From Chromatiales bacterium (lineage in GTDB: Bacteria; Pseudomonadota; Gammaproteobacteria; JAGRGH01), in the NCBI GenBank assembly GCA_020445605.1, contig JAGRGH010000049.1:186001-250000 (forward strand): a stretch of 64,000 nt of DNA, given 5' to 3'. The position numbers were made by a program, and so were the translations under genes. This document shows positions 2,171 through 37,794 of this stretch, in pieces (the first letter of the stretch is position 1; every line of letters begins with the position of its first letter). The notes beneath the pieces are model-generated. The model was not told the DNA's origin, did no database searches, and was given only the letters and a program-made list of their open reading frames with translations.

Positions 2171-2320
2171 GGGAAGCTCTGATCCATCCATCCCGGGTTG
2201 CCCGAGCGTCGAAAACGAAAAAGTGCGATTTTTCGTTTTCTTTAATTTTTTACGTCTTACACCTGTTGAAAATGGCAGCACTTTCCTTGTCATGTGAAGA
2301 TCTGAGTCGTTCAGAGCTCA
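2171..2320 (+). repeat. Five-hairpin repeat, family B, copy 1
   Basis: Begins with GGGAAGCTCTGAT and contains the A/T-rich bidirectional hairpin GAAAACGAAAAA-GTGCGA-TTTTTCGTTTTC (2211-2240, 12-bp stem). The third and fourth hairpins have decayed on one arm. The element ends near TCAGAGCTC. Confidence 0.72.
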
Positions 2321-2567
2321 TGGCGATCCAATAGGGTTACCGATCTATCGAATACGGGTAGCGAAACCACACGGGCCGCAGGAGAGCCCCGCTAGTGCCA
2401 CCTCAAGTGGGCTGACCCGGCGCAGCCGCTGGAACAAGACACCAACGCTTGAATGACGTGGCTTCGCCTGTACAACGGCGAGGCGTTCCACCCACCCAGT
2501 CAAACTGCGATCAAAGCCACCATCCGGCTCCTTGCCGGCGCAAACATTTCTGCTTGCGTAAAGTAAT

Positions 2568-3977: not shown

Positions 3978-5237
3978 ATGAAACGAGTCCTGCTTCTCGC
4001 CGGCGCGCTGGCCGTGTCCGGACCTGCCGTCGCCGCGATAGACGCACGTGCCGTGCTGAATCACTACGCCGATCTCGCGCATGCGATGTACGACGACTCG
4101 CTGATCGGGGCACACGGTCTGCGGGTGGCGGTCGAACGCCTGGTGGCCGAGCCAAGCACGGCGAATCTACAGTCCGCACGCGAGGCCTGGAAGGCGGCAC
4201 GTGTGCCCTACCAGCAGACCGAGGCCTTTCGCTTCGGCAATGCCATCGTTGACGACTGGGAAGGCAAGGTCAACGCGTGGCCGCTCGACGAGGGATTGAT
4301 CGACTATGTGGCAACTGCGTATGGCGAGGAATCCGATGAAAACCCCTATTACCGGGCCAACGTCATCGCCAATCCGCGGCTGGTGCTCTCGGGGCGGACA
4401 ATCGACGCGCGCGAGATCACCCCGGAGCTGATCTCCGACACTCTGCACGAGGTGGACGAGATCGAGGCCAACGTGGCGACCGGCTACCACGCGATCGAAT
4501 TCCTGCTCTGGGGGCAGGACCTGAACGGCACCGGGTCCGGCGCGGGAAACCGGCCGGAGACCGATTTCGACCCGAAGCGGTGCACGGGCGGTCACTGCGA
4601 ACGTCGTGCCGCCTACCTGCGTGCCGCCACGAGTCTGCTGGTCAGTGATCTCGAATGGATCGTTGCGCAGTGGTCACAGGGCGGTCCGGCGCGTGACTCC
4701 CTGCTGGGTGCGGGCGCCGACCAGGGGCTCGCGACGATCTTCAAGGGGATGGGCAGTCTCTCGTACGGTGAACTCGCCGGCGAACGCATGAAGCTCGGGC
4801 TCATGCTGCACGACCCCGAAGAGGAACATGACTGCTTCAGCGACAACACACACTGGTCACACTTCTACGACGCGCTTGGTATCCGCAACGTCTACACGGG
4901 GCGCTACGTGCGTGCCGACGGTTCGACCCTTGCCGGCCCGGCGGTTGCCGATCTGGTTGCCGCACGGGACGCAAAGATCGATGCCGATCTGCGCGCGCGG
5001 CTGGAGGCGACACAGGCGCGCATGCAGATCCTGGTCGACAGCGCCGAGCGCGACGGGGTCGCCTACGATCAGCTGATCGGCGCCGAAAACCTGGCCGGGA
5101 ATGCCAAGGTTCGCGATGCCATCGACGCCCTGCTCGCGCAGACCAAGGCCATCGAACGCGCGGTTTCCGTCCTCGGACTGGATGCGATCGCGTTCGAGGG
5201 TTCCGACAGCCTCGATGCGCCGGATACCGTCAAATAA
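3978..5237 (+). CDS. Imelysin-family periplasmic iron-regulated protein (IrpA-like)
   Basis: 419 aa with a signal peptide cut after about residue 19 (GPAVA-A). Imelysin/peptidase M75 fold; the family motif GxHxxE is intact as GYHAIE at 169-174, and the second conserved block HDCFSDNTHWS lies near 290. Family members are iron-regulated periplasmic or surface proteins linked to iron uptake; peptidase activity is doubtful. The RBS AAGGAAA precedes ATG 3978. It is downstream of the LbtU-like porin, and a second imelysin lies at 8680. Its stop codon is followed at once by a reverse B repeat. Confidence 0.85.
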   Translation: MKRVLLLAGALAVSGPAVAAIDARAVLNHYADLAHAMYDDSLIGAHGLRVAVERLVAEPSTANLQSAREAWKAARVPYQQTEAFRFGNAIVDDWEGKVNAWPLDEGLIDYVATAYGEESDENPYYRANVIANPRLVLSGRTIDAREITPELISDTLHEVDEIEANVATGYHAIEFLLWGQDLNGTGSGAGNRPETDFDPKRCTGGHCERRAAYLRAATSLLVSDLEWIVAQWSQGGPARDSLLGAGADQGLATIFKGMGSLSYGELAGERMKLGLMLHDPEEEHDCFSDNTHWSHFYDALGIRNVYTGRYVRADGSTLAGPAVADLVAARDAKIDADLRARLEATQARMQILVDSAERDGVAYDQLIGAENLAGNAKVRDAIDALLAQTKAIERAVSVLGLDAIAFEGSDSLDAPDTVK

Positions 5238-5240
5238 GGC

Positions 5241-5390
5241 CTGATTGCATCAGGATCGCCCGCGGCACATGGACGTGCCGCCATTTTCAACGGATGTAAG
5301 CCGTTGAAAATGAGAGAAAAAGGAAAATCGCACTTTTTTCGTTTTCGCTGCTCTGGCAATCCTTCGACGGATTGATCAGGGCTTCCGTAG
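5241..5390 (-). repeat. Five-hairpin repeat, family B, copy 2 (reverse)
   Basis: Complete reverse copy at a convergent junction. In + strand order it has CCTGAT-TGC-ATCAGG, then GCGGCAC-ATGGAC-GTGCCGC, then CATTTTCAACGG-ATGTAAG-CCGTTGAAAATG (12-bp perfect stem, 5282-5312), then the A/T-rich hairpin region, then CAATCC-N5-GGATTG. Compared with copy 5 the stems carry paired changes (GTGGCAC/GTGCCAC there, GCGGCAC/GTGCCGC here). Confidence 0.8.
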
Positions 5391-5552
5391 CAGGTTGTTG
5401 AAAAAGGCCCATCCATGGCCTGTTCAACATCGCAACCGAAGAGCGCGGTTTTCGGTCGCTCACGAACATCAGCCACTTGCGTGTCCGGGTTTCGGGCGAG
5501 ACATCCCTGTCTCGCGATATCAGCCTGTTGAAACGAGATTTTCGACAGCCTG
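5391..5552 (+). repeat. Five-hairpin repeat, family A, copy 2
   Basis: 162 bp from CAGGTTGTTGAAA to TTTTCGACAGCCTG. Hairpins include AAAGGCC/GGCC, ACCGAA-GAGCGCGGT-TTTCGGT, and CGAGAC-ATCCCT-GTCTCG (5497-5514). It abuts B copy 2 directly, so the whole 5241-5552 junction between the imelysin and bfr genes is repeat. Confidence 0.8.
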
Positions 5553-5564
5553 CCAAGCAAAATG

Positions 5565-10847: not shown

Positions 10848-10935
10848 CCGGGGAAACTCTGATTGAATCAGGGATTCGAGCGGCACACGGAGCTAACGCC
10901 GCTTTCGACGGCTACAAGCCGTTGAAGAATCGACC
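10848..10935 (-). repeat. Five-hairpin repeat, family B, copy 3 (reverse, truncated)
   Basis: Starts with the B end GGGAAACTCTGATTGAATC, continues with a degenerate CGGCAC hairpin and ends within the third hairpin TTCGACGG-CTACAAG-CCGTTGAA. The A/T-rich hairpin and the far end are missing. It fills the convergent junction between DUF1513 and DUF302. Confidence 0.7.
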
Positions 10936-10940
10936 CGTCA

Positions 10941-11402
10941 TCACCAGGCAACAACCTCTTCAATGATCTCCGCGAGCAGCGCCGCGATCGGCTCCACGAC
11001 CGGATCGCCTGCATAAGGTCTTGGAATCGACAGGTACACCCGCCCGGGTTCCGTGGTCAGCGTATAGATCGCGACGGAATACGGACACAGCACGATGTTG
11101 TGCGGATTCGACTCGACCAGCCGGTACGACAGGTCGGATTTGCAGAACAGCACGATCTCCGCTTCGTCATAGATGCGCCGAGTCGCACCGACCGCCTCGG
11201 CCGTGCGGTCGAGCATCGTCGCGGCGTGCGAGACATAGCTCACGACCAGCCCGCGCGCGGCAATCGCCTGATTCAGGGTGTCCCTGGTCTCGGCGAAGCT
11301 TGCGGTCTTCGACCACACCAGGGCGGGCCCATTCGGTTCGCCGTCCGCCTGGCTGGTCGCTGCGGCACACAAGGCCAGCAGAAAGATTAGAACCCGTTGC
11401 AT
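10941..11402 (-). CDS. DUF302-family exported protein
   Basis: 153 aa from ATG 11402 (AGGAG upstream; a longer in-frame start adds six residues). Signal peptide MQRVLIFLLALCAAATSQA, then a DUF302-like domain with the usual NP-x-N/H-x-x-x-LCPYSVAIY block. DUF302 proteins are small periplasmic or cytoplasmic proteins of unknown role, sometimes near redox genes. It is 94 bp downstream of the GGDEF gene on the same strand and may be co-transcribed. Confidence 0.75.
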   Translation of the reverse strand: MQRVLIFLLALCAAATSQADGEPNGPALVWSKTASFAETRDTLNQAIAARGLVVSYVSHAATMLDRTAEAVGATRRIYDEAEIVLFCKSDLSYRLVESNPHNIVLCPYSVAIYTLTTEPGRVYLSIPRPYAGDPVVEPIAALLAEIIEEVVAW

Positions 11403-24156: not shown

Positions 24157-24319
24157 GCCGGTTGTTGAAAAAGGCCCATCCATGGCCTTTTTGACATCGA
24201 AACCGAAAAGCGTGGTTGTCGGTTGCTCTAGAAAATCAAACACTTGCGTGTTCGACTTTCGGGCGAGACGTCCCTGTCTCGCGATACCAGGCTGTTGAAG
24301 TGAGAATTTCAACAGCCTG
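24157..24319 (+). repeat. Five-hairpin repeat, family A, copy 3 (best preserved)
   Basis: 163 bp. H1 AAAAAGGCC-N7-GGCCTTTTT (24168-24192), a bidirectional terminator shape. H2 AACCGA...TCGGTT (about 24200-24223). H3 AACAC-TTGC-GTGTT. H4 CGAGAC-GTCCCT-GTCTCG (24264-24281). H5 CAGGCTGTTGAA-N8-TTCAACAGCCTG (24288-24319, 12-bp perfect stem). The ends form an inverted repeat (CGGTTGTTGAAA / TTTCAACAGCCTG). It fills the convergent junction between the aspartoacylase-like and acylphosphatase genes. Confidence 0.88.
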
Positions 24320-24352
24320 TCAGGGAGCCTCCTAGCCAGCCGGGCCGGACCG

Positions 24353-33037: not shown

Positions 33038-33048
<11 letters not shown>

Positions 33049-33199
33049 AAAAGGCTCGTCCATGGGCTTTTCAACGTCACAACCGAAAAGCGTGGTTTTC
33101 GGTTGCTCACAAAAATCAAACACTTGCATGTTCGAACTTCGGGCGAGCCGTCCCTGTCTCGCGTTATCAGACTGCTGAAATGAGAATTTCAACAGCCTG
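33038..33199 (+). repeat. Five-hairpin repeat, family A, copy 4
   Basis: 162 bp from CAGGTCGTTGAAA to TTTCAACAGCCTG. H1 GTTGAAAA/TTTTCAAC, H2 AACCGAAAA-GCGTGG-TTTTCGGTT (33081-33104, 9-bp stem), H4 CGAGCC-GTCCCT-GTCTCG, H5 CTGAAATGAGAATTTCA-type. Its left end contains the hda stop codon, and a short B-type start (GGAAGCTCT) precedes it inside hda. Confidence 0.85.
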
Positions 33200-33203
33200 C
33201 CAA

Positions 33204-33243
33204 GGAAGCGCTGATCAATCCGTCCCGGATTGATCAGGGATTC
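33204..33243 (+). repeat. Family B repeat fragment
   Basis: Only the first hairpin of B: CTGATCAATCCG-TCC-CGGATTGATCAG (33211-33237, 12-bp perfect stem) after GGAAGCG. With the B-type bases at 33028-33036 it flanks the A element, as if A had been placed inside B. Confidence 0.65.
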
Positions 33244-36715: not shown

Positions 36716-37428
36716 AGCGCGCAACGATCCACGCGCTGCTGATCTGTGCAGCGTGCCTGAGCGGCGACGTCGCGCAGGCGGTCGATCCGGTTTCCTACCG
36801 CGCGGAATATCAGCTGGTCTGGGCCGGACAGGTCGTCGGCGAGGCGCATCTGGAGGCCCGCTACGATGCCGCCGGCGGTTACGAATTCGGCGCCGAGTCG
36901 CAGGCCGTGGGCATGTGGCGATGGCTGCGCGACGACCGCATCGTCGAGACCAGCAGCGGACATTTTGATGCACAGGGTCTGCACCCTGCGCACTATGTCT
37001 ATCAGCATCAGGTGGGCGAAAACGACAAACGTCATGTGGAGCTGTTTTTCGACCGCGATGCACAGAGCGTTTCCAATCGTGTCGCAGGCGATGAATGGAC
37101 GATGAGCATTCCGCCCGGCACGCTCGACAAGGCCAGCCTGCAGATCGCGGTGATTGACGGGTTGCGCGAGGGCAAGCGCAGCCAGACGTTCAACGTCGCC
37201 GACGGCGGCCGACTGAAACAGTACCGGTTTGACGTGGTCCAGGACGCCCTGCTCGATACGCCGCTGGGCCGACTGGACACGGTGGTCGTCGAACGGCGCA
37301 AGGGCACGCGCGCGGTGGACGTGGTGCTGTGGTGTGCGCCGGCGCTGAATTATCTGCCGGTGCGAATCGAGCGACGCCACCAGATTCTCGGCGGCGTCAT
37401 GGAACTGGTCGCGCTGAAAACTCTATAG
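36712..37428 (+). CDS. DUF3108 exported protein
   Basis: 238 aa from GTG 36712, overlapping purN. Signal peptide to about residue 23 (GDVAQA), then a DUF3108 beta-rich domain (SYRAEYQLVWAGQVVGEAHLEA; TPLGRLDTVVVERRKG). Conserved after purN in Gammaproteobacteria; role unknown, presumably periplasmic or outer-membrane-associated. A B repeat starts at the base after its stop codon. Confidence 0.85.
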   Translation: MKRATIHALLICAACLSGDVAQAVDPVSYRAEYQLVWAGQVVGEAHLEARYDAAGGYEFGAESQAVGMWRWLRDDRIVETSSGHFDAQGLHPAHYVYQHQVGENDKRHVELFFDRDAQSVSNRVAGDEWTMSIPPGTLDKASLQIAVIDGLREGKRSQTFNVADGGRLKQYRFDVVQDALLDTPLGRLDTVVVERRKGTRAVDVVLWCAPALNYLPVRIERRHQILGGVMELVALKTL

Positions 37429-37579
37429 GGAAGCTCTGATTAATCCATTCTGGATTAACAGAGCGACGAAAACGAAAAAGCGCGGTTTTTCGTTTTCTTA
37501 CATTTTCAATGGCTTACGCACATTGAAAATGGTGGCACGTCCCTGTGCCACGGGAAACTCTGAATTGATCAGAGTTTCC
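37429..37579 (+). repeat. Five-hairpin repeat, family B, copy 5 (best preserved)
   Basis: 151 bp made entirely of five adjacent hairpins. H1 GCTCTG-A-TTAATCC / GGATTAA-CAGAGC with one bulge (37433-37464). H2 GAAAACGAAAAA-GCGCGG-TTTTTCGTTTTC (37468-37497). H3 CATTTTCAATG-N9-CATTGAAAATG (37501-37531). H4 GTGGCAC-GTCCCT-GTGCCAC (37532-37551). H5 GGAAACTCTGA-ATTGA-TCAGAGTTTCC (37553-37579). The ends are inverted (GGAAGCTCTGAT vs GGAAACTCTGA). Convergent junction DUF3108/norB. Confidence 0.9.
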
Positions 37580-37632
37580 ATAGCAACGAACAGGCTACAC
37601 CGGCGATCCGGGGTCTGCGGACCAGCCCCGGC

Positions 37633-37665: not shown

Positions 37666-37712
37666 GCCAACCCCGGCCATCGATGGAGCCATGCCCTCAG
37701 GCTCCTGGAACC

Positions 37713-37794
37713 TTGGCTCTGATCAATCCGTCATGGATCGTCAAGCCGGCACTTCCGTGTGCCGCGGCGCACTCCGAGTTGGTCAGAGTTCTCC
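37713..37794 (+). repeat. Family B repeat, degenerate copy 6
   Basis: CTCTGATCAATCCG start, a weak GGCAC-N-GTGCC hairpin, and a GAGTTGGTCAGAGTTCTCC end. The two A/T-rich hairpins (H2, H3) are deleted. It lies between the nor terminator and the norB stop. Confidence 0.6.

Follow-up and report, generated by a model that had tools for sequence, protein, structure and literature searches.

MITEs mobilised by IS5-type transposases are characterised by terminal inverted repeats, a 4-bp target duplication, the lack of an ORF, many copies and a mobiliser that acts in trans and has matching ends. The ordinary, IS-derived interiors of such elements are lineage-specific. REP/BIME and ERIC are likewise intergenic palindromic repeats that occur in many copies, and REPs consist of one hairpin each, are associated with RAYT transposases and have no terminal inverted repeats or target-site duplications of the kind described below. 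Correia elements (NEMIS) of Neisseria are MITEs of 100-150 bp with a folded transcript that affects host mRNA (RNase III; PMC10969869). The QMITEs, MITEs of the gammaproteobacterium Coxiella burnetii, are comparable in size, and their structured transcripts have been linked to small RNAs (PMC5896051); the duplications of QMITE2 measure 7-9 bp and its ends 23-29 bp, and a link of QMITEs to CsrA is absent from the review that describes these (PMC10969869). Among RNAs, CsrB/CsrC and RsmX/Y/Z/V/W consist of hairpin series with A(N)GGAX loops on C-G-closed stems and are encoded by single chromosomal genes with regulated promoters. RsmZ is 127 nt long, with four stem-loops and a terminator, and CsrA/RsmE recognition follows the rule of an A(N)GGAX loop placed directly on a C-G-closed stem (PMC4005645). 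The SELEX consensus for CsrA is RUACARGGAUGU (PMC7652899).

We describe here a repeat that resembles both groups, located in a window of 64,000 bp (the whole stretch of DNA that was analysed) from a gammaproteobacterial draft genome of 3.36 Mb in 63 contigs. It has the mobile traits of IS5-mobilised MITEs, and differs from them in that a conserved five-hairpin RNA is common to elements with different ends. Its ends and host range are other than those of Correia elements, which are not known to form an RNA of five hairpins with GGA loops, and its five hairpins, terminal inverted repeats and target-site duplications set it apart from REP/BIME. It differs from the CsrB/Rsm RNAs in being transposable and dispersed, in having two GGA hairpins and in lacking a recognised promoter. 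Comparison of its copies indicates that these MITEs very probably carry a strand-specific structured RNA.

The original prediction, made from the letters of the window, had described positions 37429-37579 as five back-to-back hairpins. Folding agrees with this, giving five consecutive single hairpins over the 151 bp with a minimum free energy of -74.4 kcal/mol, compared with -33.2 +/- 3.7 kcal/mol for shuffled sequences (0 of 200 as good; z -11). The minus strand, which is taken as the RNA strand on the evidence given below, matches the covariance model with 128.4 bits. The other copies that had been listed in the window are also real (Table 1): two lie in reverse orientation, one of them partial, another retains only an end hairpin and another is internally deleted. 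The target-site duplication ATAG and the presence of the same five-hairpin module in three elements with other ends (type A) had been missed. When copies were sought throughout the source genome, as had been proposed, at least 42 long copies with type B ends were found, at 75-100% identity.

Table 1. Coordinates of the element, its parts and related copies in the window
Feature	Position	Strand	Basis or remark
Complete element, end type B, 151 bp	37429-37579	-	RNA 5' end at 37579; fold, copies, strand asymmetry, covariance-model match
Left target-site duplication ATAG	37425-37428		Direct reading
Right target-site duplication ATAG	37580-37583		Direct reading
Terminal inverted repeat GGAAGCTCTGAT, RNA 3' end	37429-37440	+	Matches IS5-type element ends in other genomes
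Terminal inverted repeat GGAAACTCTGAT, RNA 5' end	37568-37579	-	Inverted counterpart of opposite end
Hairpin H5', first in RNA, end repeat folded on itself	37553-37579	-	Fold; 9/10 pairs change on both sides
Hairpin H4', hexaloop AGGGAC (37539-37544) on C-G pair, candidate CsrA/RsmA-type	37532-37551	-	Fold, loop consensus over 76 sequences, loop counts
Hairpin H3', variable loop, often GNAA-like	37501-37531	-	Fold, covariation
Hairpin H2', CRC loop in most copies	37468-37497	-	Fold, loop counts
Hairpin H1', last in RNA; loop GAA here, GGA in nearly all copies	37433-37464	-	Fold, loop counts
Degenerate full-length copy, end type B	2172-2321	-	Covariance model, 55.1 bits
End type B copy, right end decayed	5234-5386	+	Covariance model; coordinates approximate
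Truncated end type B copy	10852-10962	+	Covariance model, 31.8 bits
Internally deleted end type B copy, without H2'/H3'	37707-37793	-	Covariance model
Fragment with only H1' and its terminal repeat	33204-33243	-	Direct reading, covariance model
Type A element (ends CAGGCTGTTGAAA), same five-hairpin module and loops	24159-24320	-	Covariance model
Type A element, adjoins type B copy 5234-5386	5392-5553	-	Covariance model
Type A element	33039-33198	-	Covariance model

Full-length copies start with GGAAGCTCTGA and finish with TCAGAGTTTCC or close variants, and lie between 4-bp direct repeats; the terminal inverted repeats at the two ends are thus GGAAGCTCTGA and GGAAACTCTGA. Perfect 4-bp duplications flank 86 of 134 full-length copies, compared with 13 when the flanks were shuffled, and 63 of these 86 have the form YTAR (CTAG, TTAA, CTAA, TTAG). 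The element is short (about 150 bp), has no ORF and occurs in the many long copies noted above; a conserved ORF is not possible in it, because the observed turnover of its stems is so high. Genome G145 has eight element matches of identical score. Seven of these copies were read out and are identical over 153 bp, each with its own duplication (TTAA, ATAG, ACAA, AAAA, TTAG), and therefore point to recent transposition in that genome. By these sequence characters, the repeat at 37429-37579 is a MITE.

Insertion sequences of about 1.2 kb with ends like those of the element reside in at least three other genomes that host it. A pattern scan for terminal-repeat pairs flanking a gene, taken alone, returned no complete element, and the partner was identified by intersecting transposase matches with element ends. 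One such IS (loci L169 and L308) is 1171 bp long, carries GGAACCTCTGATTAATT at both ends and is flanked by a 4-bp duplication, ATAA. The partner protein is an IS5-family transposase (NF033581, 349 and 342 bits at a cut-off of 140; also PF01609 and PF05598). In G282, which has 13 IS copies, the element ends in GGAARCGCTGA and the IS in GGAAACGCTGA, with GGAARCGCTGA common to both; in G145 the element end is GGAAGCTCTGAATAAG and the IS end GGATGCTCTGAACAAG. Judged by these two genomes, the ends of the element track those of the resident IS. An autonomous partner with matching ends was thus found in other genomes and not in the source genome, where searches with PF01609 and with the partner protein gave no IS5-type transposase, so that the copies there look stranded, as far as a draft assembly can tell. 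In L326 of G145, beside the IS end that lies far from position 2593, an IS5-type copy sits inside a CRISPR array (repeats CGGTTCATCCCCGCGTGCGCGGGGAACAC).

The agreement with IS5-type ends would also be expected of a decayed insertion sequence, that is, a MITE formed by internal deletion, in which the interior is a neutral leftover. We regard this as very improbable. Element and IS have only about 17 bp of their ends in common, and therefore the interior is not a remnant of an IS of the L169/L308 type. In addition, the interior is common to elements with unrelated ends and covaries across more than 50 family groups, which contradicts neutral decay.

The structure was examined in an alignment of 76 distinct sequences from many hosts. 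Paired cells amounted to 95.8%, compared with 79.7% after shuffling and at most 51% with the partners slid, and double-sided changes were present at 49 of 53 pairs, with 556 double-change cells against 136; the alignment had been fitted to the covariance model, which favours structure, and none of the shuffled or slid controls came close to the observed covariation. When the minus strand of each copy is folded by itself, 123 of 133 distinct copies form exactly five hairpins, and this persists where the stems of H2 and H3 have turned over completely. The paired stem changes that had been quoted from the window (AATG/CATT to AACG/CGTT, and GTGGCAC/GTGCCAC to GCGGCAC/GTGCCGC) are present in the alignments. 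The suggestion of selection on structure made on their account gains support beyond what could be seen in the window, both from the covariation and from an asymmetry of wobble pairs between the strands.

To measure this asymmetry, stems were located by a strand-symmetric finder, and each position was counted a single time per host. The minus strand had 97 G.U pairs and 49 A.C pairs (p = 9e-5), and the excess was replicated in three sets that had not been used before, namely type B elements of other genomes (39:14), elements with other end types (89:39) and type A elements (34:12). The p values for the strand are optimistic, since copies share ancestry, and the agreement across sets is the stronger argument. 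Of the two possible RNAs, that of the minus strand is also the more stable one in 24 of the 25 hosts. The original prediction had read the hairpins on the plus strand; an RNA from that strand was rejected, because A.C mismatches exceed G.U pairs there and the GGA loops are on the minus strand.

The same data bear on a purely DNA-level role, in which the palindromes act as cruciforms or single-stranded DNA bound by transposase or host factors, or are products of quasi-palindrome correction, and there is no RNA function. Hairpin-rich ends are common in mobile DNA, and correction by template switching can yield paired changes without selection. Palindromes of double-stranded DNA and template-switch correction are strand-symmetric and would therefore give equal numbers of G.T and A.C, whereas G.U exceeded A.C on one strand in every set tested and the same strand folded better in nearly all hosts. 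Direct target duplications argue, moreover, against single-strand (HUH) transposition. A DNA-level role is accordingly improbable, and the structured RNA is preferred.

Two of the five loops of this RNA resemble CsrA sites. The H4' loop has the consensus C, A, N, G, G, A, N, G, with C in 74, A in 75, G in 74, G in 74, A in 71 and the final G in 75 of about 76 sequences and both N positions free. Across five sets, GGA is found in 98 of 108 H4' loops and 100 of 108 H1' loops, compared with at most 8 of 106 H3' and 3 of 105 H5' loops, and is rare in H2' loops too. H1' counts from loci L050-L168 are biased, because the pattern used to collect them required GGA, and GGA conservation in H1' was not taken from them; loci found otherwise were used instead, and these have GGA in 29 of 29 H1' loops and ANGGAN in 28 of 29 H4' loops. 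H1' loops carry GGA or A(N)GGAX, with the A less constant than the GGA, and the H1' loop of the copy at 37429-37579 itself has decayed to GAA, which counts against the CsrA reading. The motif of both hairpins is retained across entirely different stems, across end types and in another class. As in the CsrB/Rsm RNAs, there are thus at least two A(N)GGAX loops on C-G-closed stems, and the H4' loop matches both the structural rule and the SELEX consensus, which makes it a candidate CsrA/RsmA-like site. In L284 (G279) and L287 (G375), a 161-bp variant (GGAAGCCCTGAAAA... with CCGCGGCCAGGGACGGCCGCGGG) with 13-14 matches per genome has GGA in H4' and not in H1'.

On the strength of these loops, the element probably encodes a transposable CsrA-binding RNA. 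In such a model, read-through from a neighbouring gene would account for most transcription of the copies, one CsrA/RsmA homodimer would clamp the loops of H4' and H1', with H3' and H2' looped out between them, and the resulting RNA could serve either as a scattered decoy for CsrA or to tether CsrA to a host transcript. The element might gain by a lower cost of insertion, by RNA stability or by control of transposition. Inspection of the element by eye revealed no promoter or terminator of its own. The orientation of both neighbouring genes was the same as that of the copy in 29 cases and opposite in 30. A cis role deduced from gene orientation was rejected for want of a consistent orientation. 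With random orientation, the RNA strand would be transcribed from a part of the copies only, and the lack of a preference favours selection on the element over a host regulatory role.

The strand asymmetry and covariation need only a structured RNA, and could also be those of an ordinary MITE. Its hairpins would then function in RNA stability, processing or insulation, like those of REP, ERIC and Correia elements, and the GGA loops would be retained for some different reason at the RNA level or for a protein other than CsrA. Convergent gaps are favoured over divergent ones (12 vs 1 in the source genome), as would suit such a function. A loop without GGA is conserved as well: H2' keeps CRC in 88 of 105 hairpins, which CsrA does not explain. 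Stability alone, on the other hand, does not explain why A, G, G and A are fixed whereas both N positions and the sequence of the stem vary freely, nor why this holds for two hairpins on one strand, in several end types and in more than one class. We therefore consider the ordinary MITE rather unlikely, and keep CsrA binding as the preferred reading.

The module is widely distributed. The type A family, with ends CAGGCTGTTGAAA, a length of 160-162 bp and YTAR duplications, has 40 copies in the source genome and the same five hairpins and loops as type B, and further end types with the same module were found in other genomes. Among 369 genomes sampled from the class, 77 contained type B matches. 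The module is also present in other classes of the phylum, making at least two proteobacterial classes in all, and ANGGAN loops sit on different stems there. Among the carriers that the pattern scan identified by name are Halothiobacillus sp., Candidatus Thiosymbion oneisti, Chromatiales USCg_Taylor and many groundwater MAGs; viral contigs, plasmids and phages gave no match to the element.

The source genome encodes a CsrA in which Leu4 and Arg44, presumably important residues of the protein, were read directly. In the phylum sample, csrA was present in 44 of 46 element-positive and 176 of 352 element-negative genomes (Fisher p about 2e-10), an association that is confounded by phylogeny because the positives cluster in about ten families, of which one is dominant. 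The two positive genomes without csrA in this sample are 69-74% complete. Of 58 carriers in the class set, 53 had csrA. Some csrA-negative drafts (G143, G113 and G216) carry element copies, and are perhaps incomplete. The co-occurrence agrees with the CsrA idea and does not prove it.

We lean slightly towards a superfamily of transposable elements in at least two proteobacterial classes that has different IS-type ends and encodes a conserved CsrA-binding RNA, such that transposition would seed the genome with scores of CsrA sites and rewire or buffer post-transcriptional control. Known CsrA-titrating RNAs are single regulated genes, and a transposable one, if real, would give selfish DNA a new means of acting on a global regulator. 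Counting types A and B together, the source genome would then hold about 80 elements with at most two CsrA sites apiece, and a function would be assigned to repeats that are widespread among environmental proteobacteria and have no Rfam entry. Binding of CsrA to the repeat RNA offers a direct test.

A known RNA family was rejected, as no Rfam score in the window exceeded its gathering threshold; the weak matches were far below, and the only trace of the CsrB/Rsm clan was RsmV with 14.0 bits against 100. Searches of the open-access literature (subscription papers lie outside it) for links between MITEs and CsrA or RsmA, and for MITEs in Mariprofundus, gave nothing relevant. MITEs and CsrA sponges are each known, and a transposable element that carries a conserved RNA of CsrA type behind different ends was found neither in Rfam nor in that literature. 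The earlier statement that no named element has this design thus holds for the RNA module, with neither an Rfam match nor a paper, and fails for its carrier, a known kind of element, namely a MITE moved by an IS5-type transposase.

Copies also vary in arrangement and length. In L006 (1356-1651) and in L312 and L337 (G145), elements and IS copies are inserted at CTAG/TTAG of another element's end, forming tandem chains. Solo 27-bp H5 hairpins (GGAACCTCTGATCTATTCAGAGGTACC) without the remaining element occur in L189 (1446-1472) and in several places in G037. Length variants are seen in L087 (6011-6212, 202 bp) and L069 (4106-4269), where the extra sequence lies only inside H2 and the other four hairpins are intact.
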